A stretch of DNA of 38,735 nucleotides. Source: Alistipes sp. Lineage in GTDB: Bacteria; Bacteroidota; Bacteroidia; Bacteroidales; Rikenellaceae. The position numbers and the translations under genes were made by a program. The notes beneath the pieces were generated by a model. That model saw only the letters and a list, made by a program, of their open reading frames with translations, was not told the origin of the DNA and ran no database searches. Shown in pieces: positions 2,551-28,492 of the stretch (its first letter is position 1; every line of letters begins with the position of its first letter). The stretch is from NCBI GenBank assembly GCA_017531305.1, contig JAFXLG010000037.1, positions 1 through 38,735 on the forward strand, read 5' to 3'.

Positions 2551-2621
2551 GACATAAATATTAAATTAGGTTTTGCAGTTGCAATATAGTGATTAATTCT
2601 GAAATAAATTCGAAATCGAAG

Positions 2622-2664
2622 CAAAAAATGCATGATAACGCTATATTTTTCTGTGTTATCATGC
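2622..2664 (-). terminator. Rho-independent terminator of the DUF4834 gene
   Basis: A perfect 10-bp stem, gcatgataac at 2630-2639 paired with gttatcatgc at 2655-2664, has a 15-base loop. On the minus strand the stem is followed by ATTTTTTGC (from 2629 downward), a U-tract. It lies about 50 bases past the DUF4834 stop. Confidence 0.75.
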
Positions 2665-2715
2665 TAAAGTATTGATATTTATTTGTGTTGTGTTTTTGAA
2701 GATAAATGGTAAAAA

Positions 2716-3111: not shown

Positions 3112-3142
3112 TCTTTTATTGTTATTAGTTAAAAAGCCTGCG

Positions 3143-3150
3143 CAAAATTA
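3143..3150 (-). promoter_or_regulatory. -7 box of the DUF4834 gene
   Basis: TAATTTTG on the minus strand matches TAnnTTTG and lies about 32 bases before the start. No clear -33 element is seen. Confidence 0.45.
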
Positions 3151-3181
3151 CAAAAAAATCGTCATTTAAGAGAAATATCTC

Positions 3182-3212
3182 TTTCGAGTATGGATAAAAA
3201 GTATTAAATTTG
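3182..3212 (+). promoter_or_regulatory. Promoter of purB
   Basis: TAAATTTG at 3205-3212 matches the -7 consensus. TTTC at 3182-3185, 19 bases upstream, is one mismatch from the TTTG -33 element. The start codon follows 25 bases after the -7 box. Confidence 0.55.
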
Positions 3213-3237
3213 GTGCCAAATAAACTTATTCGAAACT

Positions 3238-4581: not shown

Positions 4582-4594
4582 GCTGGATAAAGCG

Positions 4595-4633
4595 AAAAAA
4601 AATATCTCGGATGAAAGTCCGAGATATTTTTTT
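4595..4633. terminator. Bidirectional terminator between purB and the DUF2723 gene
   Basis: A 12-bp perfect stem aaatatctcgga (4600-4611) / tccgagatattt (4618-4629) with a 6-base loop is flanked by A8 on one side and T7 on the other, so it should stop transcription in both directions. Confidence 0.9.
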
Positions 4634-4818
4634 GTTATTGTCGTTAGTTGTTTGGATGTCATTGCCCTTTGATTGGAACGTCATGCCACAGCCGAGTGCA
4701 ACGAGTGCTGATTGGCATCTCTACACTCAATTTTTTTCGTTAGAGACTCCAATCCTCACCAATATTATGGCTCGGTGGAGTGACGTCTTTTACGACATTA
4801 AACAAACTTTTATTACGC

Positions 4819-7800
4819 CTACTCAATCTGCTCCGAGTCAAGCAATTTGGCAGGATCTGTTCCTGGCATAATCAACTCATCATCTGTATAGCCAAATGTT
4901 CGATAATAGTCGTTGAAGAACTTCAGAAGCTCGTCTCGCTTCGAGTATGCTGCCAGATAATATAACTCCGAAAGGCTATCCATGCGGTCGGTAATCTGAC
5001 CTGAAACCAAAACAGCCTTTGCTTGGTCAAACTGCAGATAATACTCTATGCCCTCGATAAGAGTTTCGGCGTAGTTCTTGAGCAGTTTGTCTGCAGCCTC
5101 AGTCTCATTTATCGAGTAATATGCCTCGATAAAAGGTACGGTGTTGGCATCGGTATAACGGATCTTTGGCGATGGCAGGAGTTCCATACCTCTGTCAAGC
5201 AACTGCTTTGCCTCCTTGTCCTTACCCTCGCGGATTAGTTGCTTGGCAACACGTGCGTAACCTTCACGCGCTTTCGATGCGGTGAGGTTGTATTGAGTGA
5301 AGAAGTCTGCATTGACCTTCTCATCGGCAAGATTACCAAAACGCAGAGTCTCCATCATCAATGGATATGTCTGCTCGGAGTCTATGCGTCCAATCTCCCA
5401 TGATGAGTGATATGGGGTATAGATCGGTACCAAGCGATAAGAGTAACCATCGTACTGCAGATAATCCAGCAATCCGAAATCCTGCAGGATATAGACCTGA
5501 GTGAAGCAGATTGGTCGCTTCCAGTCAAAGTTCGACAACATGTCGAGCATCATCATCTCGCTCTTGTCGATGGAGCGTTTACGCTCAGGGATGGTGATAT
5601 ATACAGTATCGACCATCAGATCGCGATCCTCTTCCTTAACGATGCCTGCCGCTATGGCGTTCTCCTTGTTTACAGGGATGGCAATTTTACGCGCAGGAAC
5701 GTAGTCAAGCAGCGTGCCATCCGAAAGCTCCATCTTGGTCGATTCGCTCTCGCTCTTGATAAACTCCATCAGCTCCTTGATCTCTACCACGCGCTCCACC
5801 TTCTGGCGCACAGGCAACTGATCGTTCACTCCGCTGTCGTATTTGCTTCTTGGCAATGAGAATGGTACGGGCGCAGCTTCGTATGAAGCATTCTTCATCT
5901 GGTCGATGTACCAATCGCCATTCAGGTAGCTTGAGTTCATGATACGCACATCGGTACGCACTCCATCAACCTCTTGGTTAAACCACAGCGGGAATGTGTC
6001 GTTATCGCCATAGTTGATTATAATGGCATTTTTAGGCGTTGATTGCAGGTAATTCCAACCAATATCACGTCCCATGGTACGTCCCGAACGATCGTGGTCG
6101 TCCCAGTTCTGAGCCGCGAGGATTGTTGGCACTCCCAAACATATAATGGTAGCGATCAGAGCTATGTTCTTGTTATCCTTCTTGGTGGCAGCAATGATCA
6201 GATCGCGAATGGCAAGCACACCCAAACCGATCCAGATACAGAATGCATAGAAAGATCCTGCATACACGTAATCTCGCTCACGAGGCTCCGAAGGGCAGGT
6301 GTTGAAATATACGACCAGCGCGATACCCATCATGATGAAGAGCCACATCACTACCGTAAAATTCTTCTGGTCGCGGTTGAGCTGATAGATAAGTCCTATC
6401 AATCCCAAAAGGAATGGCAAGAAGAAATAGGTATTGCGTGCAGGGTTATCCTTCATCTCCTTCGGTAGATCGGTCTGAGGTCCGAGATACGCCTCATCAA
6501 TGAACTTTATACCCGAAAGCCAGTTACCATGTACGATTGTCTCTTCTGAGGCTTGGATATCATCCTGCCTACCCACGAAATTCCATAGGAAGTATCGCCA
6601 ATACATGTAATTGAGCTGATATGTGAAGAAGAAGTAGAGGTTCTCTCCGAATGTTGGCTCGATGAACGTTTCGCCCATCTCCTTATCATATACGGTACGT
6701 CCGAAGTCGAGAACATCGCCACGCATCACACGCCCCTGCTCATCGCGCATTACTTCGCCGTTTTCATCCTTCAGTACATCCTTCTTTGTACGGTATGCAG
6801 CCCAAGGCTTGTATCCAGCCTCACCCTTGCCTGAGTGCCACAAACGTGGGAAGAAATGCATAAACTCGGAAGGATATGTATAACCCGTAAGCTGAGTTAC
6901 CTTCTCATATTTTTTCTTCTCTGGGTTAAATTTATACGATGTCTTTTCGGTATAATCCTCGATCGGTGATGAATAATATGGACCATACAACAGAGGGCGG
7001 TTGCCATACTGATCACGGTTGAGTACCGATAGCAAAGCCTGTGGGTTGTTAGGGTTATTGCTGTTCATCGGTGGATTGGCTACGGCACGAATGGTGACGG
7101 TGGCGTAAGACGAGAATCCGATTAAGATCATCATGGTCGAGAGCAGAATCAGATTCCACACCTTGCGTCCTGCGCGGTGGGTACGGATAACACCGTAGAA
7201 AATTGCACCCAAAACGACCAATGCAAATACCGAAATACCCATATTGACGGGGAGTCCCAACGAATTGACAAAGAAGACATCCACCATTGCACCCAGATAT
7301 ACTGTATAAGGGATGATTATGCCGTTGATGAATCCCAAAATCGCCAAAGCTACAAGCGTAGCCAAAGCCATTCCCTTTAGTGTGATATTGTCATACTTAC
7401 GGAAGTAGTAGATAAATACCAACGCAGGGATAGTCAACAGGTTAAGGATATGAACTCCGATGGAGAGTCCCATCAAATATGCGATAAGTATGATCCAACG
7501 TGCCGAGTGAGGCTCATCTGCCTGCTCTTCCCACTTGAGCATAAGCCACACGACCAATGCCGTAAACATAGAAGAGAGGGCATATACCTCACCTTCTACT
7601 GCCGAGAACCAGAATGTGTCGGTAAAGGTGTATGCTAAAGCTCCCACAGCACCTGCACCCAAAACCGAAATCTTCTCCATCTGGCTCATCTCTCTACCGC
7701 CGCGAGTGAAAATTCTACGTGCCAGATGAGTGATAGTCCAATAGAGGAAGAGGATACAGAATGCACTTGCCAAGCAGTTCATGGCATTTACCATGTGTGG

Positions 7801-8019
7801 CACATAGTAGCTCGATGGCGAAAACATCGTGGCAATGCGTGCCATGAGCATGAAGAGTGGTGCTCCGGGTGGGTGACCTACTTGAAGTTTATAGGATGTG
7901 GCGATAAACTCGGCGCAATCCCAAAGGCTTGTCGAAGGCTCCATTGTGAGCAGGTATGTCATAGCCGCGATGAAAAATACTCCCCATCCGACCAATTTGT
8001 CCCAGCGTTTGAAATTCAT
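4819..8019 (-). CDS. DUF2723 family membrane protein, probable GT-C type glycosyltransferase
   Basis: This 1066-residue protein begins with roughly a dozen hydrophobic segments in the first ~650 residues and ends with a ~400-residue soluble part that contains helical, TPR-like repeats. The DUF2723 hallmark lies in the first external loop: SLWDCAEFI (D34, E37) and GHPPGAPLF (49-57). A second conserved block, NYGDNDTFPLW, follows the membrane domain. DUF2723 is related to protein O-mannosyltransferases (GT-C fold) and includes the human O-mannosyltransferase TMEM260. A role in Bacteroidota protein O-glycosylation or lipid-linked sugar transfer is inference. It is transcribed alone from a consensus promoter at 8089-8059 and terminates at the hairpin shared with purB. 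Confidence 0.85.
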   Translation of the reverse strand: MNFKRWDKLVGWGVFFIAAMTYLLTMEPSTSLWDCAEFIATSYKLQVGHPPGAPLFMLMARIATMFSPSSYYVPHMVNAMNCLASAFCILFLYWTITHLARRIFTRGGREMSQMEKISVLGAGAVGALAYTFTDTFWFSAVEGEVYALSSMFTALVVWLMLKWEEQADEPHSARWIILIAYLMGLSIGVHILNLLTIPALVFIYYFRKYDNITLKGMALATLVALAILGFINGIIIPYTVYLGAMVDVFFVNSLGLPVNMGISVFALVVLGAIFYGVIRTHRAGRKVWNLILLSTMMILIGFSSYATVTIRAVANPPMNSNNPNNPQALLSVLNRDQYGNRPLLYGPYYSSPIEDYTEKTSYKFNPEKKKYEKVTQLTGYTYPSEFMHFFPRLWHSGKGEAGYKPWAAYRTKKDVLKDENGEVMRDEQGRVMRGDVLDFGRTVYDKEMGETFIEPTFGENLYFFFTYQLNYMYWRYFLWNFVGRQDDIQASEETIVHGNWLSGIKFIDEAYLGPQTDLPKEMKDNPARNTYFFLPFLLGLIGLIYQLNRDQKNFTVVMWLFIMMGIALVVYFNTCPSEPRERDYVYAGSFYAFCIWIGLGVLAIRDLIIAATKKDNKNIALIATIICLGVPTILAAQNWDDHDRSGRTMGRDIGWNYLQSTPKNAIIINYGDNDTFPLWFNQEVDGVRTDVRIMNSSYLNGDWYIDQMKNASYEAAPVPFSLPRSKYDSGVNDQLPVRQKVERVVEIKELMEFIKSESESTKMELSDGTLLDYVPARKIAIPVNKENAIAAGIVKEEDRDLMVDTVYITIPERKRSIDKSEMMMLDMLSNFDWKRPICFTQVYILQDFGLLDYLQYDGYSYRLVPIYTPYHSSWEIGRIDSEQTYPLMMETLRFGNLADEKVNADFFTQYNLTASKAREGYARVAKQLIREGKDKEAKQLLDRGMELLPSPKIRYTDANTVPFIEAYYSINETEAADKLLKNYAETLIEGIEYYLQFDQAKAVLVSGQITDRMDSLSELYYLAAYSKRDELLKFFNDYYRTFGYTDDELIMPGTDPAKLLDSEQIE

Positions 8020-8058
8020 ATTATTTTAGTATCTCTATTTATTCTTAATAACGGAGGG

Positions 8059-8089
8059 CAAAGGTAGTTATTATTTTCCTTTTCGGCAA
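8059..8089 (-). promoter_or_regulatory. Promoter of the DUF2723 gene
   Basis: On the minus strand TTG (8089-8087), 20 bases, then TACCTTTG (8066-8059). This matches the Bacteroidota promoter and separates the gene from the phosphoesterase upstream. Confidence 0.65.
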
Positions 8090-8103
8090 GATTCGTTTTT
8101 GCC

Positions 8104-9093
8104 TTACTTTGTGTCTGAAGGGAAATCAACCGTATTGATTATCTTGCCGTCCTTCAGGCGTATCCAAGTCTTGAATGAACGCTCGCCCTCGCGAAGTTCG
8201 ATGATGCGTGCGCCGTTACCCCCAGGGATGTTGTTATAGACGGTATTACCTCCCGTAAATCGACCATAGCAGAGCAGAATCCCGCGCCATGTGGTTGCGT
8301 AGTCATTCACATGGTCGTGACCTACGAATACGCCCATCATATCACCACATTCAAGCATTGCAGCTCCCAAACCTGTGTTGATTTCGGGAGAGCAGACATT
8401 CTCTTTGCGTGTGCCGACCATGAAATTTCCAGTGGAGGCAGCAGCTTCGCGATATTCGGGTATCGGGATATGGAAAAATGCCAACGAAGGCAGTGGCTTA
8501 CCCTGATTTTTTGCGGTAAACGACTTGCTCGATTTTTTGTACCACTCGATCTGGTCATTCTCGATCCAACCGTAACCCTTCACACCCTTTATGTTGGAGT
8601 AGGAGTGGCTGTCGAAGATGTAGAGTGTAGCTGCATCGTAATCGCCCTCAGAAGCCTCGATCGGCAGGATGTAATTCGTGATGCCCGATATGCCCTCTGT
8701 CGTTGAGCTAAGATTGCCTGGCAGATCCTCAATAAAATGTGAGAGTTGCGCTCGTGCCATATCGTGCTCATCATCGTGATTACCCCATGTAACGGCAAAT
8801 CTCAGACCACGTTTTAAAATCGGCTCCAAGACCTTTTGCAGGGCTTTGCCTGCTGGTTTGGCATATACCAGATCTCCTGTCAGAACAACCAGATCGGGTC
8901 TCTCTGCGTCCAGCACCTCAGCCATCAGAGTGGCGGCTTCTTGTGAAGCGTCATTGCCATAGACCCAATGCACATCGGTGAATTGTACGATCTTAAAGCG
9001 GCGATCTTTATTGAATTTTAGCTCTCGCTCTTGAGCGTTTAATGCTGGGATGGTCGTAAATGCCAATAGCAAAAGGAGAAGCACTTTTTTCAT
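8104..9093 (-). CDS. Secreted metallophosphoesterase (calcineurin-like)
   Basis: This 329-residue protein starts with a signal peptide (MKKVLLLLLL...PALNAQ) and carries the dinuclear-metal motifs in order: FTDVH (D40, H42), LTGDLV (D74), WGNHDDEHD (N104, H105), AFFHIPIPEY and GHDHVND near residue 255. This is the purple acid phosphatase/Siz1-like branch of calcineurin phosphoesterases. It probably hydrolyses phosphomonoesters or diesters in the periplasm; the substrate is unknown. There is no neighbour with a related function. The DUF2723 gene downstream has its own promoter, so this gene is likely monocistronic. Confidence 0.9.
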   Translation of the reverse strand: MKKVLLLLLLAFTTIPALNAQERELKFNKDRRFKIVQFTDVHWVYGNDASQEAATLMAEVLDAERPDLVVLTGDLVYAKPAGKALQKVLEPILKRGLRFAVTWGNHDDEHDMARAQLSHFIEDLPGNLSSTTEGISGITNYILPIEASEGDYDAATLYIFDSHSYSNIKGVKGYGWIENDQIEWYKKSSKSFTAKNQGKPLPSLAFFHIPIPEYREAAASTGNFMVGTRKENVCSPEINTGLGAAMLECGDMMGVFVGHDHVNDYATTWRGILLCYGRFTGGNTVYNNIPGGNGARIIELREGERSFKTWIRLKDGKIINTVDFPSDTK

Positions 9094-9141
9094 ATGAGTA
9101 ATCTTTATGTATAAAGTTTTTTTGTTTAGCTTAATTAGCTA

Positions 9142-9149
9142 CAAAGTTA
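9142..9149 (-). promoter_or_regulatory. -7 box of the phosphoesterase gene
   Basis: TAACTTTG on the minus strand, about 49 bases before the start codon, fits the TAnnTTTG consensus. No good -33 element is visible. Confidence 0.45.
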
Positions 9150-9279
9150 ATAAATTATCGCGAGTGGATAACTTTTTGATATAGAAAAAGTGTAGAAGTT
9201 AAAATATATTAGTCCTCAAGGCGTTTTGTCTAAAAAGATGTTTTTTGAATAGTCGTGTCTCTTTTTATAAAAAAAGAGT

Positions 9280-9287
9280 TATCTTTG
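9280..9287 (+). promoter_or_regulatory. -7 box of cysS
   Basis: TATCTTTG fits TAnnTTTG and lies 20 bases before the cysS ATG. No clear -33 element. Confidence 0.5.
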
Positions 9288-9306
9288 TAAAAAATAAATT
9301 TTAACT

Positions 9307-10782
9307 ATGGAAACTAAACTCAGTTTATACAATACACTTACTCGCCGTAAGGAAATTTTTGAGCCACTCAATGAGGGTCGCGTGGGAATGTACGTCTGCG
9401 GTCCTACCGTATATGGAGATCCTCATTTGGGTCATGCCCGTCCTTCGATCACCTTCGACTTGATGTTCCGTTACCTCAAGGCTTTGGGTTACAAGGTGCG
9501 CTATGTTCGCAATATCACCGATGTAGGTCACTTGGAGCATGATGCCGATGATGGCGAGGATAAGATCGCTAAGAAGGCTCGCCTCGAGGAGTTGGAGCCA
9601 ATGGAGGTTGCGCACTACTATACCGAGCGTTACCATAAGGCTATGGAGCAGCTCAACGTCTTGAGCCCATCTATCGAGCCACACGCTTCGGGACATATCA
9701 TGGAGCAGATTGACTTCGTTCAGCGCATATTCGATGCAGGTTATGCCTACGAGTCTAATGGCTCGGTATATTTCGATGTAGAGAAGTATAACGAGGTTTA
9801 CAACTACGGTAAACTCTCGGGTCGCAATCTGGATGATATCGTAGCAAATACTCGTGATCTGGATGGTCAGAGCGATAAGCGTCACTCATACGACTTTGCT
9901 CTTTGGAAGAAGGCTGCGCCAGAGCATATCATGCGCTGGAAGTCGCCATGGAGCGATGGTTTCCCCGGTTGGCATATGGAGTGCTCGGCTATGAGTTGTA
10001 AGTATTTGGGAGAGCAGTTTGATATCCATGGAGGCGGTATGGATCTGATGTTCCCACACCATGAGTGTGAGATCGCTCTGGCTACAGCTGCTTTGGGTAA
10101 GGATTCGGCTCGTTATTGGGTTCACAACAATATGATCACCATCGATGGTCAGAAGATGGGTAAGGCGTATGGTAACTTCATCACCATGGAGCAGCTCTTT
10201 AATGGCGAGCATCCAAAGTTGGAGCAGCCATACTCTCCTATGACTATTCGCTTCTTCGTTCTTCAGGCTCATTATCGTTCAACGCTCGATTTCTCTAATG
10301 CCGCTTTGCAGGCTGCCGAGAAGGGCTTCGATCGTCTGATGAAGGGAATGGAGACTTTGGGTAAGTTGAAGGCTTCAGCCACCTCTTCGGTAGAGATCGC
10401 CGACCTTGAGAAGCGTTGTAGTGAGGCTATGAACGATGATTTGAACTCTCCAATGGTTATCTCTGCTCTGTTCGACTATGTGCGTATAATCAATCAGATT
10501 GCCGAGGGTCAGCAGACCATCTCTGAGGCGGATTTGGCAGAACTCAAGCGAGTGTTCGACCTCTATGTATATGAGATTTTGGGACTCCGCAACGAGAAGC
10601 AGGAGGGTGTTGCAGGCGGTAGCGATATGCTCGGTAAGGTTGTTGATATGATCCTTGCCGTACGTCAGGATGCCAAGGCTAACAAGGATTGGGCTACATC
10701 GGACAAGATTCGCAACGAACTCACAGCCATCGGTATCCGCGTGAAGGATCGAAAGGATGGCGTTGACTGGGAGATCGAATAA
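9307..10782 (+). CDS. cysS: Cysteinyl-tRNA synthetase
   Basis: This 491-residue class I aminoacyl-tRNA synthetase charges tRNA-Cys. The catalytic motifs are HLGHARP (the HIGH motif, near residue 40) and KMGKAYGN (the KMSKS equivalent, near residue 284). Zinc ligands for cysteine selection are present: Cys in [10 protein letters not shown], Cys in HMECSAM and the HHECE stretch. The C-terminal DALR/anticodon-binding part is complete, ending GVDWEIE. Length is standard. The codon pattern (GAG, CGT, GGT preferred) is that of a highly expressed gene. A 118-nt palindromic element begins two bases after the stop. Confidence 0.97.
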
Positions 10783-13480: not shown

Positions 13481-14035
13481 CTAAGCGATTAATGTCGGCA
13501 GATAATATATCGCAATACCTGCCAGAGCCGAAAGAACTATAAGCATTATGGGGTTTACCTTACGATAAGATAGGTAGCACGCCCCCAAAAATAGTCCCCA
13601 ACTCCACGCATCAATAAAACTTGCACCTTCTTGTGTAGAGGGGAAGAGTAGCAAAAGTGCCGCCGAGACAATCATGCCAATCACTATAGGGCGCATACCC
13701 GAAATTATGCCTTTGAAAATGTGGTTATCCTTAAGCAAAAGGAAGAATCGAGTTATCAGCGTCATTATCGTCAGGGCAGGCATGCAGACCGAGATTGTCG
13801 CAACCACCGATCCCCAAAATCCCGCTACACTATATCCCACATAGGTTGCCGAGTTGATGGCGATAGGTCCAGGGGTCATTTGCGATATAGCCACTATGTC
13901 CGCAAATTCGGCATTAGTCAACCATCCGTTCTGCACCACAATCTCGTTTTGGATAAGCGAGAGCATGGCATATCCTCCTCCAAATCCGAAGAATCCGATC
14001 TTTAAGTAACTGATGAAGAGTTGTAGGTATATCAT
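13481..14035 (-). CDS. Chromate transporter, second half-size subunit
   Basis: This 184-residue membrane protein belongs to the CHR family: FGFGGGYAMLSLIQNEIV near the N terminus and the MTPGPIAINSATYVGY block are diagnostic. I chose the start at 14035 because its ATG overlaps the stop of the upstream CHR gene (ATGA); an in-frame upstream start would add 45 residues with no CHR similarity. The two genes together make a pair of half-size subunits, replacing the single ~400-residue ChrA. The family exports chromate in some bacteria; in gut anaerobes the natural anion is unknown. Confidence 0.88.
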   Translation of the reverse strand: MIYLQLFISYLKIGFFGFGGGYAMLSLIQNEIVVQNGWLTNAEFADIVAISQMTPGPIAINSATYVGYSVAGFWGSVVATISVCMPALTIMTLITRFFLLLKDNHIFKGIISGMRPIVIGMIVSAALLLLFPSTQEGASFIDAWSWGLFLGACYLSYRKVNPIMLIVLSALAGIAIYYLPTLIA

Positions 14036-14574
14036 CTCTTCACCTCCTTTCCCCTTGCCGCAACCCATAATGCTCCGCCCACGGCACCTGCCAAGAGTAG
14101 ATAGATGGGCGAGATCCCGAAATGCCAGATCACAAAAGCCACAACCGCCGCTACGCTGATCATCGTCCAATGTAATCCCTTTGTAAAGCCGAGTATGGGG
14201 GCAAGAATCAGGGCAACCACTACGGGGCGCATACCCTTGAAGGCTGCATCTACTATGGCGTTCTCTCTAATCTGTGAGAAGAATATAGCAACCACAAGGA
14301 TTATCAGAAACGATGGCAATATTACTCCCAAAAGAGCCGACAAAGCACCTCGGTAACCATACATTTTATAACCGACAAATACCGCCGTATTGAGTGAAAT
14401 AGGTCCAGGTGCCGATTGTGCGAGTGTCAATAGATCCAAGAACTCTTGTTGCTCTATCCAATGGCGATTATCGATGACCTCGCGTTGGATAATAGGAATC
14501 ATGGCATATCCACCGCCGAAGGTGAACAGTCCGATCTTAAAAAATGAGAAAAAGAGTTCTGCGAATCGTCTCAT
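14032..14574 (-). CDS. Chromate transporter, first half-size subunit
   Basis: This 180-residue protein has the same CHR-domain marks as its neighbour: LFTFGGGYAMIPIIQREVID and SAPGPISLNTAVFVGYKMYG. It has about five to six hydrophobic segments. It is the first of a coupled pair (4-base overlap) that presumably forms a heterodimer equal to one full-length ChrA. It starts only 5 bases after the stop of the upstream methyltransferase gene, so it belongs to the U32/methyltransferase operon, although no functional link to those genes is evident. Confidence 0.88.
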   Translation of the reverse strand: MRRFAELFFSFFKIGLFTFGGGYAMIPIIQREVIDNRHWIEQQEFLDLLTLAQSAPGPISLNTAVFVGYKMYGYRGALSALLGVILPSFLIILVVAIFFSQIRENAIVDAAFKGMRPVVVALILAPILGFTKGLHWTMISVAAVVAFVIWHFGISPIYLLLAGAVGGALWVAARGKEVKR

Positions 14575-19768: not shown

Positions 19769-19837
19769 GGTAGTTGAAATGACTTGTGCGAGGTCTGAAT
19801 CGCATGCAAAATAGCCGATATATTGCGCTCTACCAAC
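19767..19837 (-). other. tRNA-like relic or structured 3' element
   Basis: On the minus strand GTTGGTAGAGCGC (19837-19825) copies the D-arm of many tRNAs. It is followed by a possible anticodon-like arm and a 5-bp T-arm-like hairpin (tgcga 19787-19791 / tcgca 19800-19804), and closes with CTACCAA. TTGGTAG and CTACCAA can pair (19836-19830 with 19773-19767). The acceptor stem is not canonical, so this is not a working tRNA. The alsT stop codon lies inside the D-arm-like piece. Confidence 0.4.
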
Positions 19838-21233
19838 ACTCTATGGAGTCATCATTGGCGAACTCCTTTACATCCGATTTCTTGAAAACAGGATCTTTGC
19901 CTTTGCCTAATTGTGAGCGATAATCCTTAAGCAGAAGCATAACTTTACCTCCGAGCATTGTTATGGCGACAAGGTTGCAGAGCGTCATCAACCCCATAGT
20001 GATATCTGCCATGCTCCACACCATCTTAAGGCTCATCATGGCACCAGCCATAACCATTGCCCCGACCAAAATGCGGTATATGGTAAGCGTTAGGCGTGAT
20101 TTGGTGATGAATCTGATGTTAGCCTCACCGTAGTAATAATTACCGATAATGGATGAATATGCGAAGAATAAAATTGCTATGGCAATAAATATACGTCCCG
20201 ATGCTCCTATGTGCAACGTCAGAGCCTCCTGAGTAAGGCGTACTCCGTCTGCTTCGTCAAGCCCCACGCCGCTTATGAGGATTATAAATGCAGTACAACT
20301 GCAAATCAGCAGAGTGTCAGTAAATACTCCTAATGTTTGTATAAGTCCCTGCTTTATGGGGTGCGATGTCGAGGCTGTCGCTGCTGCGTTGGGGGCAGAG
20401 CCCATTCCCGCCTCGTTGCTGAACAGACCTCGTTTTATACCTTGCATTACGGCTGCACCCATACCTCCAGCCACGACCTTATCTATACCCAAAGCATTTT
20501 CGAAGATCAGATCTATAATCTGAGGCAGGTGCGAGATGTTTAACGCAACTATGACCAATGCCAAAGCTATATATCCCAACGCCATGATTGGTACAATTAT
20601 CGAGCTGAACTTGGCGATTCGTTGTATGCCACCGAAGATAATGAGCAGCGTGGCGATGGTTATAATTATGCCAAATTCCATGTGCCCGATCCCAACGGCG
20701 TTATTTACCGCTTCGCATATAGTGTTGCTCTGTACGGTATTGAACGCAAAGCCGAATGTGAGGATCGTAAGCACACTCATCATTATCGCCATAGGCTTAT
20801 TCCTCAGTCCATACATTATATAATATGCAGGACCGCCAATGTATGAGTCTGCCGAATGACGTTTATATAACTGCGCCAATGTGCTCTCCACAAAGGCGTT
20901 GGCTGCACCAATAAGAGCTATCACCCACATCCAGAATACCGCCCCCGGACCACCAATGGTAATTGCTGTTGCTACTCCTGCCAAGTTTCCTGTGCCCACT
21001 CGGCTGGCAAGCGATACGGCGAATGCCTGAAAAGGCGAGATGTGGCGTTTGCTTTGATTGTGATTCTTCTCTGCAGAGTTGGTCAGTTGGCGAACCATCT
21101 CTCGGAGCATAGTAAACTGCACAAAGCGGCTGCGAATGGTAAAGTAGAGGGCGCAACCTATCAGTGATGCAATCATCACATAGCCCCATAGGATGTTATT
21201 CGTTGAGTCGATTATTTGTTGCAGTTGTTCCAT
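19830..21233 (-). CDS. Amino acid:sodium symporter, AlsT/AGCS family
   Basis: This 467-residue inner-membrane protein has about eleven hydrophobic segments and the AGCS blocks: RVGTGNLAGVATAITIGGPGAVFWMW near residue 80, then GAANAFVESTLAQLYK and FSNEAGMGSAPNAAATA near residue 270. The family imports alanine, glycine or glutamine with Na+. It starts 10 bases after the stop of the hydrogenase-related small subunit, with no terminator between, so it is very probably the last gene of that operon. The pairing could join a Na+ or H+ pump and a Na+-driven importer (inference). The last residues (SIECW) are encoded within a tRNA-like relic. Confidence 0.92.
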   Translation of the reverse strand: MEQLQQIIDSTNNILWGYVMIASLIGCALYFTIRSRFVQFTMLREMVRQLTNSAEKNHNQSKRHISPFQAFAVSLASRVGTGNLAGVATAITIGGPGAVFWMWVIALIGAANAFVESTLAQLYKRHSADSYIGGPAYYIMYGLRNKPMAIMMSVLTILTFGFAFNTVQSNTICEAVNNAVGIGHMEFGIIITIATLLIIFGGIQRIAKFSSIIVPIMALGYIALALVIVALNISHLPQIIDLIFENALGIDKVVAGGMGAAVMQGIKRGLFSNEAGMGSAPNAAATASTSHPIKQGLIQTLGVFTDTLLICSCTAFIILISGVGLDEADGVRLTQEALTLHIGASGRIFIAIAILFFAYSSIIGNYYYGEANIRFITKSRLTLTIYRILVGAMVMAGAMMSLKMVWSMADITMGLMTLCNLVAITMLGGKVMLLLKDYRSQLGKGKDPVFKKSDVKEFANDDSIECW

Positions 21234-21243
21234 CTCTTATGTG

Positions 21244-22005
21244 TTATCGTTTTTTTAGACCGATGAGGTTCATCACACCGTCAATAAATGTCATTGGGTG
21301 TGTTGGAGTACCAGGTAACCATAAATCAACATGATACTTTTCTAAGAATGAGCGATCCACAGCCTTGCTCTGGGCGTACAGTCCTCCCGAGATAGCCTCC
21401 GATCCGCATACAATCACAATCTTTGGGTCGGGAATGGCTTTAAAACATATATCCAGCGGCTCAGCCATACTCTTCGAGATAGGTCCTGTGATTACAACTC
21501 CATCGGCATGACGAGGTGATGCTACAAACTCTACGCCATAGCGACCGAAGTCGAAATTTACATTGCCCGTAGCATTAAGCTCCATCTCTACCGAAGCATC
21601 GCCCGCAGCCGACACCTGACGTAGTTTCAGCGCACGACCAAAGAGCTTGGGGATCTCCTTGCGTACGTTCTGCTGATGGAAATCCACAGATTTGGTTTGG
21701 GGAGTAACGATGAGTGCCTCGCGCGAAGTTGAGCCAATTTTGTAATCGTTTGTAAAGCGTATGTTACGTGGCGCACGCAAAGCACACTCGCCACAGAACA
21801 AACAACGTCCCATGTCGAGCGAAAAAGGAACCGTGGTGATTGCCTGAGTAGGGCAGATCTTGGCTGCCGCCTCCACATCGCTCATGTCCGAAGTCTCAGA
21901 GAGTTCTACTCGTCCGCGAAACTCCTCGGTGAGAGTTACATTATTCAGATCGGGTATATATTGCCATCCATGGCTCTTTAGTACCTTTATTTTTGGCAGA
22001 ATCAT
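21244..22005 (-). CDS. Fused HyfH/HyfI-like subunit of a hydrogenase-related (Ehr) complex
   Basis: This 253-residue protein joins a ferredoxin-like domain (about 40-90) and a NuoB/HycG-like small-subunit domain (about 138-250; ASPRHADGVVITGPISKSM, then SGGLY). I chose ATG 22005; a longer frame runs into the upstream gene. The ferredoxin part keeps C51 of motif 1 and C68, C71, C74 of motif 2, one full [4Fe-4S] ligand set. The other set is gone (the fourth motif-2 Cys is A78). The NuoB-like part lacks the proximal-cluster cysteines: the CGGCNGC region reads like NATGNVNFDF, GAC is GSE (E203) and PGC is PGT (T233). Such a subunit cannot bind the usual proximal cluster. Confidence 0.85.
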   Translation of the reverse strand: MILPKIKVLKSHGWQYIPDLNNVTLTEEFRGRVELSETSDMSDVEAAAKICPTQAITTVPFSLDMGRCLFCGECALRAPRNIRFTNDYKIGSTSREALIVTPQTKSVDFHQQNVRKEIPKLFGRALKLRQVSAAGDASVEMELNATGNVNFDFGRYGVEFVASPRHADGVVITGPISKSMAEPLDICFKAIPDPKIVIVCGSEAISGGLYAQSKAVDRSFLEKYHVDLWLPGTPTHPMTFIDGVMNLIGLKKR

Positions 22006-22024
22006 ATTCTTCTTTCTTAGTCTG

Positions 22025-23536
22025 TTATAAATCGTGTCCGCAGTATGAGAGGTTGAAGCTCTTATTGTTGATCGGGAAGTCCGATATGCCTTCGCCTCTG
22101 ACAGCAAGAGCCAACGCAAGCCAATTGTGCAGGCTCGGATCTTTGATCTTGTAGGTCTCGATCTTACCCTCCTTATCGGTTATCGCCACATGGCAAATCT
22201 CGCCACGCCATCCCTCCATCAAAGCTATCGAGATAGACTCCTCTTTCAATGGGGAATCATAATCGGGCAGATGACTCTCGGCGGGAGTGTAATTAGAGAG
22301 TATCTGTTCAATGTAATCAGCCGACTGCAATACCTCGCGGCAACGTACCATCAGGCGGGCCATCACATCTCCCTGACGCTTGATGATGCTCTCGTGTTTT
22401 AGCTCTGTGCCATAAGCTAAATATGGGTGTGATGAACGAATGTCTCGGCTCACTCCGCTTGCGCGTGCCGCCATGCCCACTCCGCCTATACGCTGCATCT
22501 CTTGTTTAGGCACATTTCCGCATTGCTCGTATCGTGCCAAAAGCGATGCTGAGGTCTTGATGTCTTCGCGCACCTCATTGTATCGGCGTTTGATCTGAGC
22601 CACATTCTGACGAATCATCTCGACCTTCTCTTTGGTTAATGGCTTGTTCGTGCCACTTGGACGAATCAAACCCTTGCCGAAGCGGTTGCCACACCACGCC
22701 TGAGTGGTATTGATCGTCATCGTACGCAGAGCCTCGCAAGCCACCTGTCCCAATTGATAGCCTACATCGGTACACAAAGCTCCCGTATCGGCAATATGCA
22801 TCGCCATACGCTCCAATTCAAGTGCTACGGTACGTTCGCGCTCAAGATTTTCATCAGCCTTTTTGCCCGATAGTTTCTCCATCGCCATAGCAAAAGCTAC
22901 TCCGTGCGATACGGCACTATCGCCTGCTATGGATTCCGAGAGTAACATCTGACGCAGGCGGTTATCTGTAGCTGTAAACTCATTCTCCACACCTCGATGC
23001 TGGTATCCGAGTGCAATCTCCAGATGCAATACATTCTCTCCGTTGCAGATGAAGCGGAATGCTCCTGGCTCGATGATACCTGCGTGGATAGGACCTACGT
23101 TCACCTCGTGAAGCGACTCTCCCTCGATAGTGTAGAATGGGTAGTTATCTATTGTAGAGTTACGGTTACGGCGATTGAAGGCAAAGCGTAGAGGCTTATT
23201 CCATGGCATCGAATCAAACTCCACGTTATATAGTTCCGTAATCTCTCTCTCGAATGGATGCAATGCAGGGTGCAGAGCCGTAAGCGAAGGTAATGCAATA
23301 TCTTCGTAATACTCCATCGAGAAGGATGAAATCATAATCTGCGCAGTAGCATCATCCAGAAGAATCAGATAGAATCGCAATTTCTGCTCTTCTGGGCGAG
23401 CGAAGTAGTGGGCAACGTGGTATTGCTCCTGAGTCAAACGCTCTTTCAAATCCTCATACAACGCGGCGTAATCCACCTCGGGGATCTCTCTGAGATGGAT
23501 AGCTTGGTTACGGTTATCTGTAATGTAATATATCAT
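22025..23536 (-). CDS. HycE/HyfG-like large subunit lacking [NiFe] ligands (Ehr type)
   Basis: This 503-residue protein has a NuoC-like N-terminal part (HPFEREITELYNVEF, 93-107) fused to a NuoD/HycE-like part (GYQHRGVE, 177-184; RGEGISDFPI, 480-489). In true group 4 hydrogenases the large subunit has CGIC and DPCxxC. Here the first reads AGDS (204-207) and the last reads NLSYCGHDL at the C terminus, with Ser497 and Gly500 at the expected ligand places and a lone Cys499 between. It therefore cannot hold a NiFe centre and should not be called a hydrogenase. There is no C-terminal peptide to cleave. It lies 3 bases downstream of the HyfF-like gene. Confidence 0.88.
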   Translation of the reverse strand: MIYYITDNRNQAIHLREIPEVDYAALYEDLKERLTQEQYHVAHYFARPEEQKLRFYLILLDDATAQIMISSFSMEYYEDIALPSLTALHPALHPFEREITELYNVEFDSMPWNKPLRFAFNRRNRNSTIDNYPFYTIEGESLHEVNVGPIHAGIIEPGAFRFICNGENVLHLEIALGYQHRGVENEFTATDNRLRQMLLSESIAGDSAVSHGVAFAMAMEKLSGKKADENLERERTVALELERMAMHIADTGALCTDVGYQLGQVACEALRTMTINTTQAWCGNRFGKGLIRPSGTNKPLTKEKVEMIRQNVAQIKRRYNEVREDIKTSASLLARYEQCGNVPKQEMQRIGGVGMAARASGVSRDIRSSHPYLAYGTELKHESIIKRQGDVMARLMVRCREVLQSADYIEQILSNYTPAESHLPDYDSPLKEESISIALMEGWRGEICHVAITDKEGKIETYKIKDPSLHNWLALALAVRGEGISDFPINNKSFNLSYCGHDL

Positions 23537-23539
23537 GAC

Positions 23540-24943
23540 TTAGAACATTGCGATTTTATCTATAATATCTCTCAATATGGTTGGCTGCCAGAATCCGATT
23601 ACAAGTGCGAAGACCAAAAGCGAAAGGGCACTGTATGAGAGTCGGCGGTTGATATTCGAGAGGTGAAGCTCATCTTGATTTGATTGATAACAGAGCTTGA
23701 TCATGCGGTGGCAGACGGTAAAGATCACAATACAGATGAGCAAAACCATGATAGCAAGCACCCACCATCCTCTCAAGGTCAAAGCCTCCATCATAATCAT
23801 CAACTCCGAGATGAATAGTGGTGAAGGAGGGAATGCCAAGACTGCAATCATACCCAGCAGAAGTCCTATAGCTCCCACCTTATTGATATTGATATAGTCT
23901 CCGATACGGTTGATGCGGTAGCCATTGTAGATCTGACGCACGATAGCAATCTGCAGGAAGAGGCTGCTCTTGATGAATGTATGACATACCACATGGAATA
24001 TAGCAGCCCATACTCCTATACCGCCGATACCCAAACCAATGGCAACGATACCCATATTCTCGACCGTAGAGTAGGATAGGAATCGTTTGTAGTTATTGGT
24101 ACGGCGGAGGAACAAAGCTCCCACCATCAGGCTCAGGAGTCCTATGATGAGCATTACGTTCTTCACCCAAGGGAAGACTTCGGTGGTGGAGAATAGTTTG
24201 TAGATGCGGAAGATCGCCAAGAAACCAGCATTCACCAAGCCTGTTGAAATCATAGCCGATGCAGGTGCTGGAGCTGCAAAGTTGGCATCCACACCGATTG
24301 TATAGAGTGGGAAGATCTCCATCTTACAGCTATAACCCGTGAGAATTAGCAGGAATGCCGCCTTGAGATAAAGCGGATTGCCGTTTATGATAAGGTGCTG
24401 CAGGTCGTTGTAGTTCAACGAGTTGTTGGATGCTGTGGCGCATAAAAGCAGGATGCCCAGATATGCGATAGCGATACCCGTAGAACATACGAAAAGATAC
24501 TTCCATGTAGCCTCCAGCGTTGCCTTCGAGTGGCGGTGGTAGATAATACCTGCCGCACACAAAGTGGTAGTCTCAAGCAGGATCCACGTGATGGCAATGT
24601 TGTTGGCAAAATATACTCCCGTAATGGCGGCAGTAAGCAACATAAGCAGGGCAAAGTAGTTCCTGTAATTTACTATCGTATCATCCTTGAGATACTCCTC
24701 GGAGTGAATGAAAACATAACACGACACCACAAACAGCAACACATAAAAGAGTGTTCCAATCTGATCGAACGTGAAGAACTCTCCCGAAGTAGAAAGATAT
24801 GCTCCGCCAAAGAGAAGATTTAATCCGAAAATGGCATGCGATACCAGATAAATCAGGTATAAAGAGTGTACCATCTTGCGGCTTCGGGCGAAGAATGTGG
24901 CTGCTGCCACTAATATCCATATTGCGAAGAAGATATATATCAT
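23540..24943 (-). CDS. HyfF/NuoN-like proton-pump subunit
   Basis: This 467-residue protein has about 13-14 hydrophobic segments and a complete proton-conducting (PF00361) domain. Ion-channel residues typical of the family are in place: the Glu in WILLETTTL, the Lys in EATWKYLF, the Lys in GYSCKMEIFPLYT and the Lys in NYKRFLSYSTVENMG. The usual MHTWLPDAH stretch reads LYTIGVDANF, so its histidine is lost, as in many HyfF proteins. It is one of two antiporter-like subunits of the membrane arm, in the order expected for hyf-type operons (E-like, then F-like, then G-like). Confidence 0.88.
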   Translation of the reverse strand: MIYIFFAIWILVAAATFFARSRKMVHSLYLIYLVSHAIFGLNLLFGGAYLSTSGEFFTFDQIGTLFYVLLFVVSCYVFIHSEEYLKDDTIVNYRNYFALLMLLTAAITGVYFANNIAITWILLETTTLCAAGIIYHRHSKATLEATWKYLFVCSTGIAIAYLGILLLCATASNNSLNYNDLQHLIINGNPLYLKAAFLLILTGYSCKMEIFPLYTIGVDANFAAPAPASAMISTGLVNAGFLAIFRIYKLFSTTEVFPWVKNVMLIIGLLSLMVGALFLRRTNNYKRFLSYSTVENMGIVAIGLGIGGIGVWAAIFHVVCHTFIKSSLFLQIAIVRQIYNGYRINRIGDYININKVGAIGLLLGMIAVLAFPPSPLFISELMIMMEALTLRGWWVLAIMVLLICIVIFTVCHRMIKLCYQSNQDELHLSNINRRLSYSALSLLVFALVIGFWQPTILRDIIDKIAMF

Positions 24944-24946
24944 AGC

Positions 24947-25576
24947 TTAGTCTTTTACACGAGTTAATGAATCGCTGTCATCGGTATGAATCTTATGATC
25001 TACCTTAGTCATGAACATACCCAACATCAATACCGACATCAAGATATCGAGCATGATAGCTGCATTGATCAACATCGGCATCTCGACTCCGATAGCCATA
25101 GAGAAGAGGAATACTCCGTTCTCGATAACGAGGAATCCCACCATGTGTGTAAAGATGCGTGAGCGCAGAACGATAAGAATCAATCCCGAGAGCATGGCAT
25201 AAAGGGCTACGCCGAAAAATACCATGTTGATCGAGGAATCGGCTATATAGTATGTCATGATCGCACTTATAATGAGTGCTACCACCGACAACATCAGCGA
25301 ATTGAACTGCGAAGTGCCCGAGGTACGGATACGATTGATGCGTGTCTGGTTAATTACCCGCGTCAGGATAGCTGGTACGATTAGAGCCTTGAAGACTAAA
25401 GTCTCGATAACGATAAACGATAGCTCCACCCAATCCAGCGAGTGCAGGCGAAGCAAAGCGATGCCCAACAGAATCCAACCCTGAATAGCGATTATCGAGG
25501 CATAGTTACGGAATCGCTCAACGATAGATATATAGATGAGCGAAATGATGTATAATATGATTAATGTGAGTAACAT
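24947..25576 (-). CDS. HyfE-like membrane subunit (NuoK-related)
   Basis: This 209-residue protein has about six or seven hydrophobic segments. The C-terminal half carries the NuoK-like segment GFLVIENGVFLFS with its buried glutamate, and a further Glu is in SFIVIETLVFKAL. Size and order match HyfE (216 residues in E. coli). It links the antiporter-like subunits to the NuoH-like subunit in the membrane arm. The acidic tail (HTDDSDSLTRVKD) is predicted on the cytoplasmic side. It is spaced 3 bases from the gene downstream and 7 from the gene upstream. Confidence 0.85.
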   Translation of the reverse strand: MLLTLIILYIISLIYISIVERFRNYASIIAIQGWILLGIALLRLHSLDWVELSFIVIETLVFKALIVPAILTRVINQTRINRIRTSGTSQFNSLMLSVVALIISAIMTYYIADSSINMVFFGVALYAMLSGLILIVLRSRIFTHMVGFLVIENGVFLFSMAIGVEMPMLINAAIMLDILMSVLMLGMFMTKVDHKIHTDDSDSLTRVKD

Positions 25577-25583
25577 GATGCTC

Positions 25584-26498
25584 CTATATGTTAATGTCCA
25601 ACTTAAGCAGATAGCCGATAAAGAATATCAGGGCTGCCAAAGCCGAGATTGTTACTATAAATGTGGTATTACGAACAAGTTTGTTACGTCCTTGTGTGGA
25701 CTCAACTACGCCGACCGAGAGTCCCGTTAGCAGGATCGCCAGCGGAGTGGCAAACCACCAGTTGAAACAACATGTGGCAGCTATGGCATTGGCGGCAATC
25801 ATCGAGAAGCAAGCGCACTTGATCCAGCTTGCAATATGAATCATAGCCATGTCAATACCGCAATAATCCAAGCACATCACTTCGTGAATCATAGTAAGCT
25901 CCAAGTGAGTACGAGGATCATCCACAGGCACACGTCCCGACTCCACGAATGTGATATTGACGAACAAAAATGCCGTGAGCAACATCACAATCGTAAGATG
26001 CAGGTCGAAGGTCTGTTCATGCTCGAAAATCTCGGCGAAAGATGTATATCCGCAGAAGAGAGCCAGTGTAGCGAAGCCAATCATCAGTGCAGGCTCTATG
26101 AGCGCACCATACAATGCTTCGCGGGCAGCTCCCATACCTTCGAAGGAACTTCCTGTATCCATAGCTGCAAAGATTATGATTATGCGAGCCAAAGCCAAAG
26201 TGTATGCGAAGCAGATTACATCACCATCGAATGAGATGAGTGGATAGAGATCGGCTACGGGTATAAACAACATGGCTACTATGGCAGCACCTAAATATAT
26301 GGCTGGAGCTATGCGGAATAGAGCCGTGGTAGTGGTAGAATATACCGTGCTCTTTTTCATGAGCAGATTCACATTGCGCAAGTGCTGAGTAAAAGGCATG
26401 CCCTGACGACCAGCCAAAAGTGCGCGTGTACGGTTAATCACTCCCGGTATGGCGAGTGAAGTGATGATTACAAGTAGTGTATTGAGTACGATCGCCAT
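25584..26498 (-). CDS. HyfC/HycD/NuoH-like membrane anchor subunit
   Basis: This 304-residue protein has about eight hydrophobic segments. NuoH/HycD-family motifs are clear: MDTGSSFEGMGAAREALYGALIEPALM near residue 115-140, and the conserved loop VESGRVPVDDPRTHLELTMIHEVM near 185-210, whose acidic residues line the path between the redox arm and the membrane arm. This subunit anchors the peripheral arm; in complex I it forms the quinone cavity with NuoB and NuoD. Its conserved acidic residues are kept, although its peripheral partners have lost their metal ligands. It follows the HyfB-like gene after 2 bases. Confidence 0.88.
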   Translation of the reverse strand: MAIVLNTLLVIITSLAIPGVINRTRALLAGRQGMPFTQHLRNVNLLMKKSTVYSTTTTALFRIAPAIYLGAAIVAMLFIPVADLYPLISFDGDVICFAYTLALARIIIIFAAMDTGSSFEGMGAAREALYGALIEPALMIGFATLALFCGYTSFAEIFEHEQTFDLHLTIVMLLTAFLFVNITFVESGRVPVDDPRTHLELTMIHEVMCLDYCGIDMAMIHIASWIKCACFSMIAANAIAATCCFNWWFATPLAILLTGLSVGVVESTQGRNKLVRNTTFIVTISALAALIFFIGYLLKLDINI

Positions 26499-26500
26499 AA

Positions 26501-28492
26501 CTATATCAATTTAAGGAGTGAAAGAACGAAAATTACCACCAAGAATATCAGTGCGTAGGCAATATAGAGATTGATCTTGCTCGTACGCAACAGATTCATC
26601 ACTCGTTTGTTGATCATGTGCAGAAGTTCAACCCACCATGCCGCAAACAGACGGTCAATTTTATCCTTATGTCGTACATTGTAGTTGTGTGAAGAGGGGA
26701 AAATCTCACTTTTGCTAACAGCTCGTCCTTCTACGGTATCTTGAGTGAAGGATGTGGCGATAGACTCCAACCCCTCGGCAAACGATTCGCCTGTATATTG
26801 CATACGGATGTTGGGTGAAGTGAAGCCACAACCCCAAGTTGGACCTTGATCAATGGTGCGTGATCGCTGAGCGCGACTCTTTATCACATAAAGCAGAGCA
26901 ATGATAATGACCAAAAGCCAAGCCGTAAGCGAAAGCTTGGTGAGCGCAGGCGAGAGATATTGACTCACCACAGGCTCAGTGTAAGGTGTAAATTGCAAGG
27001 CTACAACCTCGACAATGCGAATAGCAAATTGAGGGAACAATCCGATGAGGATTATTGCTGCGGCTGGTATAGCCATAGCCCCGATTCTTACATTATCCAC
27101 CTCCTGAGACTCGGCAACATGATGATGGCGTGGCGAGCCGAGGAAGATCGTGCTGTAGAGTTTACTGAATGCCAAAACTGCAATACCGCCGATCAGAGCC
27201 AACGAAAGTAATCCGCCAGCGGCATAGACTGTGTTGACATTATCCCTGACGCTGTCCAACATTCCCAAATAGATCAAGAACTCTCCTACAAAACCGTTGA
27301 GTGGTGGCAGAGCGCAGATCGCCAACGTGGCGATGAAGAAGAGTATAGCCGTCACGGGCATATGCTTTGCTACGCCACCGAATCTATCGAGCAAGGTGGT
27401 GTGCATCTGAGAATAGATGTTTCCAGCACCGAAGAAGAGCAACGACTTGAAGAGTGAGTGATTTACCGTATGAAGCAAAGCACCGCACAAAGCTATGGTA
27501 GCAACCAGATGATTGCCTGCAGCCTGTCCCAAAGTGGCAATACCCAAACCGATGAATATCACACCGATATTCTCGATACTCGAATATGCCAAAAGTCGCT
27601 TGGCATCGTTCTGAACAGCCGCCAAGATCACGCCCCAGAGTCCTGTGATGATACCTACGGCAAGTATAATCGTGCCGATAATCTGTAAATCAGCCATGTC
27701 GACAACATACCACATCACGCGCATTATGCCATAGACTCCCGTCTTGATCATAACGCCCGACATGATAGCCGAGACGTGTGATGGAGCTGCTGGATGAGCC
27801 TCGGGAAGCCAAACGTGCATAGGGAAGAGACCTGCCTTCATGCCAAATCCTAAAAGGAAGAGTATGAAAAGCAGAATTGTCTTGCCGTTGGAGAAGCAGA
27901 TGGCGAGATTGGCAAAATCGCCAGATGAGGTGATGGAGTAGATTGTAGCAAAACCTGCCACGAGGAATATAAATCCAATGTGCATCATGATCAGGTATGC
28001 TACGGCTGCTCGCAAGACCTCAGCTCGTTCGGCATCGAACAATATGAGCAGGAACGAAGCTATGGTCATCAATTCCCATGCAAAGAGAAATGAGAAACCA
28101 CCGCTTGAGACAACCACTAACATCATCGAGAGGATCAACACCACTAGTGATGAGTAGTGCAATGAAATGTGAGCCGAAGATTTCTTTTGGAGATATTGCT
28201 CTAAATATCCCTTCGAGTAGAGTATGGTTGCAATGCCTGCTACTCCTATAATCAGCAGAAACAGAGCCGAAAGCGGATCAATACTCAAAGACTCTTGTCC
28301 AAAAATAGGACTTGTAAACTCCATAATAGTCAGACTCTTGGTAGAGCTAAGCACCCCTATGGCAGGTATGGCGGCAGCCAATGCCATGGTCACAACACTT
28401 GCCAAAGCCACCCATACCTTACTGCGCAATGGGCTAAGGAAGAGTGCTGCTACAAGCAACGCAAGAGTAGGAAGCAGATAAAGATAAAACAT
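26501..28492 (-). CDS. HyfB/NuoL-like proton-pump subunit
   Basis: This 663-residue protein has about 15-16 hydrophobic segments with a complete PF00361 domain. Signature residues include the Glu in FAWELMTIASF, GMKAGLFPMHVWLPEAHPAAPS (Lys, two His), the Lys in NDAKRLLAYSSIENIG and HTVNHSLFKSLLFF. A HyfB-type C-terminal tail follows (GPTWGCGF). The length matches HyfB (672). It is the first gene of the hydrogenase-related operon. No consensus promoter is seen in the 77 bases before it (the best is TAATTTTA at 28521-28514), so the operon may also be read from rsmE upstream. Confidence 0.9.
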   Translation of the reverse strand: MFYLYLLPTLALLVAALFLSPLRSKVWVALASVVTMALAAAIPAIGVLSSTKSLTIMEFTSPIFGQESLSIDPLSALFLLIIGVAGIATILYSKGYLEQYLQKKSSAHISLHYSSLVVLILSMMLVVVSSGGFSFLFAWELMTIASFLLILFDAERAEVLRAAVAYLIMMHIGFIFLVAGFATIYSITSSGDFANLAICFSNGKTILLFILFLLGFGMKAGLFPMHVWLPEAHPAAPSHVSAIMSGVMIKTGVYGIMRVMWYVVDMADLQIIGTIILAVGIITGLWGVILAAVQNDAKRLLAYSSIENIGVIFIGLGIATLGQAAGNHLVATIALCGALLHTVNHSLFKSLLFFGAGNIYSQMHTTLLDRFGGVAKHMPVTAILFFIATLAICALPPLNGFVGEFLIYLGMLDSVRDNVNTVYAAGGLLSLALIGGIAVLAFSKLYSTIFLGSPRHHHVAESQEVDNVRIGAMAIPAAAIILIGLFPQFAIRIVEVVALQFTPYTEPVVSQYLSPALTKLSLTAWLLVIIIALLYVIKSRAQRSRTIDQGPTWGCGFTSPNIRMQYTGESFAEGLESIATSFTQDTVEGRAVSKSEIFPSSHNYNVRHKDKIDRLFAAWWVELLHMINKRVMNLLRTSKINLYIAYALIFLVVIFVLSLLKLI

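Follow-up and report, generated by a model that had tools for sequence, protein, structure and literature searches.

The window, that is the whole stretch of 38,735 nucleotides of DNA from Alistipes sp., a gut bacterium, analysed here, carries on its minus strand (28492-21244) a complete hyfB-C-E-F-G-(H+I) operon made of six adjacent ORFs. The families to which Pfam and NCBIfam assign them, HyfB, NuoH/HyfC, HyfE, HyfF, NuoC+D/HyfG and NuoB, agree with the complete Hyf-like operon proposed in the initial annotation. They encode, in the order of transcription, a HyfB-like antiporter subunit of 663 aa (26501..28492), a HyfC/NuoH-like subunit of 304 aa (25584..26498), a HyfE-like membrane subunit of 209 aa (24947..25576), a HyfF-like antiporter subunit of 467 aa (23540..24943), a HyfG/HycE/NuoCD-like large subunit of 503 aa (22025..23536) from which the NiFe ligands are absent, and a small subunit of 253 aa (21244..22005) in which a HyfH-like ferredoxin domain is fused to a HyfI/NuoB-like domain. 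The gene of this small subunit starts at the ATG at 22005, where the alignment of its relatives begins, and not at the TTG at 22119. The presence in one operon of Hyf/Ech-like membrane subunits and a NuoH-like anchor is a trait of the energy-converting hydrogenase-related (Ehr) complexes. Neither NuoEFG genes nor a separate MrpB/E/F/G-like gene were identified in the operon. A fusion of HyfF and HyfG, suggested in some Alistipes by ORFs about 978 aa long, was rejected: the two examined, those of L073 and L087, are stop-to-stop run-through in high-GC sequence, and their frame contains no HyfF match.

Aligned with HycE and MbhL, the large subunit displays SIAGDS where the VCGIC-type motif would stand, AGDS (residues 204-207, 22916..22927, minus strand) replacing the first NiFe CxxC, and it terminates in FNLSYCGHDL, of which LSYCGHDL (residues 496-503, 22028..22051, minus strand) replaces DPCxxC. 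This alignment bears out the substitutions of AGDS for CGIC and of NLSYCGHDL for DPCxxC initially read from the DNA. The CxxC ... CxxC signature of group 4 [NiFe] hydrogenases is therefore missing, and the lack of all four NiFe cysteines from a group-4-like large subunit is the trait of Ehr complexes, in line with the Ehr-type identity already suggested in the initial annotation. The Ehr-type large subunits that were aligned present AGD[ST] or SGD[ST] together with LSYxGxD, whether their proximal cluster is intact or not; because it also affects complexes with an intact proximal cluster, the NiFe loss is the general trait of Ehr complexes. Exceptions come from plasmid sequences, L206 having AGGE and L208, on a very long branch, diverging further with a C terminus reading LTISGCAR, while for L209 and L213 the comparison covers the C termini only, the first NiFe-type motif not having been extracted by pattern. 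The HPxTH and DY motifs of NuoD bind quinone. Neither is conserved in the alignment of the large subunit, which disfavours quinone, one of the substrates put forward in the initial annotation.

The small subunit aligns without gaps with MbhJ (6cfw_J) and HycG (7z0s_G), and the four positions that ligate the proximal [4Fe-4S] cluster in these proteins are occupied by D136 and V139 (positions 1 and 2, 21589..21600), E203 (position 3, GSE for GAC, 21397..21399) and T233 (position 4, PGT for PGC, 21307..21309), all on the minus strand. The claimed loss of the proximal cluster, with its GSE and PGT motifs, is consequently found at all four ligands, and the N2 ligands of the NuoB of complex I are likewise lacking. 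A replacement set of cysteines in this subunit was considered and rejected, no new invariant Cys being found among the aligned sequences. An AlphaFold model built with 44 aligned sequences reached a mean pLDDT of 91.8 and has as its best PDB matches HycG, NuoB-type chains and MbhJ (6cfw_J, TM-score of 0.83 on the target, rmsd 2.1). The fused ferredoxin domain holds the four-Cys set of one [4Fe-4S] cluster, C51, C68, C71 and C74 (21784..21855, minus strand), presumably the N6b-type set according to the ligand pattern of complex I. The second, N6a-type set is absent, its CxxCxxC and last Cys being missing. With this one complete set, the complex of the window is not cluster-free.

The extent of the proximal loss was determined on 130 distinct small subunits, retained from 170 profile matches by dropping identical sequences, fragments, complex I NuoB and sequences without the ferredoxin part; L057 (D-C-D-D), which belongs to the last category, stands outside these 130 and is the operon taken up below as L214. 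Only 8 of the 130 possess the four proximal cysteines and 122 are without the set. In these 122, position 1 is always acidic (D in 120, E in 2) and position 3 nearly so (120/122, with D in 82, E in 38 and A in 2). Position 2 holds C in 65, V in 34 and I in 9, the remaining 14 having other residues, and position 4 holds N in 80, A in 33, T in 7 and D in 1, one sequence not covering it. Outside Alistipes, D-C-D-N is the most frequent combination; the sequences of the genus (L033-L052) read D-V/I-E/D-A/T, and L140 and L141 read D-A-A-N and D-T-A-N. All 130 sequences, the 122 as well as the 8, have a complete four-Cys set in the ferredoxin domain, a conservation overlooked by the qualification of the complex as "redox-free" in the initial annotation. 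By eye, no complete second ferredoxin set was found among the 122, while six of the 8 cluster-bearing sequences have all three sets and two (L005, L006) are without the second ferredoxin set. The nearest named relatives of the window, taken as the best 80 of 573, belong to Alistipes and other Rikenellaceae, and the close homologues lack the ligand cysteines too, so that their absence is not a sequencing error. Ehr complexes with a proximal cluster were found in 13 of 395 genomes of the phylum. Proximal [4Fe-4S] ligands are thus present in part of the Ehr complexes examined and absent from that of the window, and the literature passages on Ehr cited below do not state them as defining. We term "D-type" the Ehr sub-family without proximal cluster, a label of our own; it is Bacteroidota-wide.

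The membrane arm and the pocket have been maintained in this sub-family. The HyfB-like subunit keeps E140, K219, K250, H341, H345, K349 and E404, the HyfF-like subunit E124, E144, K207 and K325, the HyfE-like subunit K63, E152 and D177, and the HyfC/NuoH-like subunit the E-channel-type charges E127, E135, E186, R189, E200 and E206. The ion-path charges of these four subunits are invariant or nearly so among D-type sequences, confirming the Lys/Glu ion path noticed at the outset. In the large subunit, the HRGxE motif (H180-E184, 22985..22999, minus strand), the Arg of which flanks N2 in complex I, has its arginine in 75 of 75 D-type sequences. The pocket residues E201, D206, H211, D486, K492, Y498 and D502 are alike in D-type and in 13 cluster-bearing sequences, the sole deviation among the D-type being one sequence at D502; the cluster-bearing sequences also keep the ion-path residues, with, where noted, at most one of the 13 differing.

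Selection on the operon is purifying: dN/dS (NG86) of the six genes ranges from 0.02 to 0.25 in the unsaturated pairs L067/L068, L077/L080 and L107/L114, the pairs including the window being mostly saturated at synonymous sites. A loss of catalytic residues would also be expected from a decaying operon and, by score, no more than 38 of the 61 genus genomes have an Ehr-type large subunit (complex I being found additionally in six of the same 61 and alone in one). A sequencing error or a pseudo-operon is nevertheless hardly credible and is ruled out by the recurrence of the loss in 122 of the 130 sequences, distinct relatives carrying the same residues, and by the purifying selection on six genes which are intact in the window.

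The NiFe loss and the proximal loss differ in age, the proximal loss being the later. In a tree of the large subunits of at least 400 aa (71 of 88), the 56 D-type sequences and the cluster-bearing L200 form a group with 99% SH-aLRT, and the Alistipes-type sequences, which are acidic at positions 1 and 3 and have neither Cys nor Asn, constitute a single clade, also with 99%. W281, R292 and R364 mark the D-type clade, yet they occur in the cluster-bearing L200; R292 and R364, considered as salt-bridge partners of the new acids, therefore do not track the loss, and no large-subunit change tracking the cluster loss itself was found, L200 sharing the marks of the clade. A tree of 38 sequences, rooted with complex I, requires two changes, both forced by its starred branches. 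One falls on the D-type group and the other, apart from it, on Allomeiothermus silvanus (Deinococcota; plasmid pMESIL01, L206), whose small subunit has only four cysteines, those of the same ferredoxin set, and presents GNE at ligand 3 and PGS at ligand 4. Allomeiothermus thus lost the proximal set separately. L206 and L208 are long-branched, which makes their exact places in the tree uncertain.

Other combinations of cluster sets were retrieved outside the 130 sequences. L214 is a Bacteroidales operon on one contig of 8370 bases with all six genes, the small subunit coming first. Its small subunit, 177 residues from stop to stop, is devoid of a ferredoxin domain, reads D-C-D-D at the proximal ligands and contains two cysteines in all, and its large subunit has VSGDTS, LSYCGNDL and four scattered cysteines. 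The six genes hold no complete cluster set; this absence concerns these six genes on one contig, the genome being fragmented into 700 contigs with a contamination of 3%. On that contig, no other ORF of at least 60 aa lies on the coding strand before or after them. L214 is nearest to L203/L204 in the tree, which then needs three changes, the starred branches forcing two. No second case of this kind was found in 295 genomes of the class: 11 had matches at 1e-30, all with open frames of 250-282 aa, a length sufficient to encode the fused form. The reverse pattern, four proximal cysteines without a ferredoxin domain, is found in plasmid operons of Rhizobium, Bradyrhizobium, Azospirillum, Methylovirgula and Cupriavidus (L207, L209, L210, L211 and L213). 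Four of them are annotated, and their gene table, which is incomplete, shows no ferredoxin gene; the Cupriavidus record (L210) is unannotated. The plasmid sample comprises nine records among those matched (89 and 87 records), one of which, L212, is complex I. Considering L214 without any complete set and the reverse pattern of the proteobacterial operons, no single cluster set is universal among the Ehr complexes examined, and the minimum common to them is the membrane arm and the pocket.

The genome from which the window derives (2.05 Mb, 87% complete) has a single PF00346 match, the large subunit of the window, and no match to PF00374 (NiFe hydrogenase); at this completeness, the second large/small subunit pair envisaged as a possible partner of the membrane arm was not found elsewhere. 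An NqrA match at 9e-34 is also present. The operon is patchily distributed, being found in 22 of 37 genomes of the same genus, one of them as a fragment. A conserved partner gene was sought among 80 named loci and rejected: none recurs in more than 26 of them, and the most frequent gene clusters outside the operon (26, 23 and 13 loci) reflect Rikenellaceae synteny. No formate dehydrogenase or NuoEFG-like partner recurs among these 80 loci. Short contigs, and antisense ORFs where the loci are GC-rich, reduce the resolution of this comparison, the operon genes themselves being picked up in 54-72 of the 80. In L102, transcription of the membrane genes leads away from those of the two soluble subunits.

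Several known systems share part of this composition. Like Mrp-type Na+/H+ antiporters, in which such subunits work without redox energy, the complex possesses antiporter-like subunits; unlike them, its operon also encodes HyfC and two soluble subunits. It has in common with complex I (NuoB/NuoD) the fold of the small subunit, the HRGxE motif and the ion-path residues, and differs from it by the absence of N2 ligands, of the N6a-type set, of conserved quinone-site motifs and of NuoEFG genes in the operon. The MBS and MBH of Pyrococcus belong to the same superfamily, MbhJ being the best sequence match of the small subunit and MBS itself lacking two NiFe cysteines; the proximal cluster held by three cysteines, as described for MBS in the passages cited here, has no equivalent in the window. 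The subunit set is related to that of the E. coli Hyc/Hyf complexes, HycE being the best and HycG the second-best of the solved relatives by sequence. In FHL, eight [4Fe-4S] clusters are described as the relay, along with a NiFe site and FdhF (PMC9474812), and the window differs from it in lacking any NiFe or proximal ligand. As in the Ehr complexes of Geobacter sulfurreducens (GSU0739-45), Nitrospira, CPR and AOA, the window has a group-4-related complex with a large subunit deprived of NiFe ligands. In the passages concerned, the loss of these ligands is the only one described and the function is unknown or proposed (PMC7894505, PMC12342949, PMC10284858, PMC7304191, PMC10432482, PMC6349859), whereas the complex of the window is also without proximal cluster and has fixed acidic replacements. 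No prior description of a proximal-cluster loss was found in the passages of the open-access PMC literature consulted.

Electron delivery to the pocket seems very unlikely in the complex of the window, because a complex I variant without cluster N2 is reported to assemble normally and to have no quinone reductase activity (PMC8042128), and because the proximal cluster of MBS has been proposed as the catalyst itself (PMC7684303). The complex I variant agrees with the initial proposal that electrons would hardly reach a NiFe-like site. As the membrane path and the pocket are intact, the simplest reading of the D-type Ehr complexes is an ion translocation without redox catalysis or electron delivery at the old hydrogenase/quinone pocket, to which we assign a probability of about 0.48, with a driving force that we infer. 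Carboxylates of the D136/E203 type, at ligands 1 and 3, would supply, alongside the arginine of HRGxE, the negative charge once provided by the cluster, so that the electrostatics of the pocket would be retained without the cluster. Protonation in the pocket, and the binding of ions or of a ligand there, would then be coupled via HyfC to HyfB and HyfF, and the complex would function as a gated H+/cation antiporter, similar to Mrp in its energetics, rather than as a redox pump, the single remaining cluster being structural or a modulator with a regulatory role. The maintenance of one cluster set in 130 of 130 sequences speaks against this reading, as it is odd if no redox event matters. Moreover, electrons may matter in the cluster-bearing Ehr complexes, in view of the three sets found in six of the eight checked.

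This maintenance, while the surrounding sequence erodes, would be in favour of a valve in which ferredoxin would reduce the single [4Fe-4S] cluster, the charge of which would gate the membrane arm with electrons going no further. Allomeiothermus, where only these four cysteines remain in the small subunit after a separate loss, is also in its favour. We nevertheless regard such a valve as unlikely, since a structural role would account equally for the conservation and since the five proteobacterial Ehr complexes and L214 do without ferredoxin domain, so that not every Ehr requires it. A different metal centre, either mononuclear or a small cluster, could still relay electrons if it were bound by the residues at the four former ligand positions: D-C-D-N would offer four possible ligands, and L214 has D-C-D-D. 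The D-V/I-E/D-A/T of the window and its genus leaves two likely ligands, however, L140 and L141 have A at position 3, and the small subunit has gained no new invariant Cys, all of which makes this relay improbable. The pocket could finally host a non-redox chemistry, such as the hydration or hydrolysis of a small molecule, driving or driven by the ion flow, as its polar set from E201 to D502 has been retained despite the loss of electron delivery; neither a substrate nor a partner gene was found, the comparison with hydratases and hydrolases being that given by the Pfam, NCBIfam and PDB searches, and we give this chemistry little credence.

Ion translocation without redox catalysis, should it be correct for the D-type complexes, has a wider counterpart, in which redox chemistry would have been abandoned in the Bacteroidota-wide class, the Deinococcota case and L214, the binding of an ion or a ligand in what was the hydrogenase pocket driving or gating the translocation; we put this forward only tentatively, as somewhat doubtful. 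According to the passages cited, each of the structurally described relatives (complex I, MBH, MBS and FHL) makes use of a proximal cluster at this site. A conserved and selected family without it represents a natural test of whether an E-channel and antiporter-like subunits can function without electron transfer, which is a debated point of the coupling mechanism of complex I. The D-type family also narrows the possible roles of Ehr complexes, the function of which is unknown in many phyla and, if redox chemistry has indeed been abandoned, the core job of Ehr complexes in general would not be electron transfer.

The gene neighbourhood of the six-gene Ehr-type operon (28492-21244, minus strand), which encodes a hydrogenase-related complex whose large subunit is devoid of NiFe ligands, includes a gene for an AGCS sodium:alanine symporter (19830-21233) starting about 10 bases past the operon. 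Among the 80 named loci of relatives compared, a match to this symporter was found only in L062 and L064, in both cases directly after the operon. Several Rikenellaceae also carry a chromate-transporter pair, or a single fused gene, near or adjoining the operon: in the window (13481-14574), L066 and L067, where the assignment was confirmed by PF02417, and in L085 and L090, where it was made by cluster.

The two soluble-subunit genes of L102 are divergent from the four membrane genes, and plasmid 3 of Variovorax sp. PBL-E5 (L205) bears two Hyf/Ehr-like operons, the first at 2466-9750 and the second following it from 13162 onward. The Ehr operon of L214 (G343 contig 386) begins with the small-subunit gene, and none of its six genes encodes a complete set of cluster ligands. 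The small-subunit match of the L127 contig, at 9001-9747, includes a single in-frame stop codon.

Two HyfB-like genes stand in tandem at the operon start in 12 of the 80 named loci (L095, L098, L099, L113, L116, L117, L121, L132-L135 and L139), a count limited by the 9 kb flanks. This duplicated arrangement suggests that some complexes of the D-type, the Ehr sub-family lacking the proximal [4Fe-4S] ligands, may contain three antiporter-like subunits.
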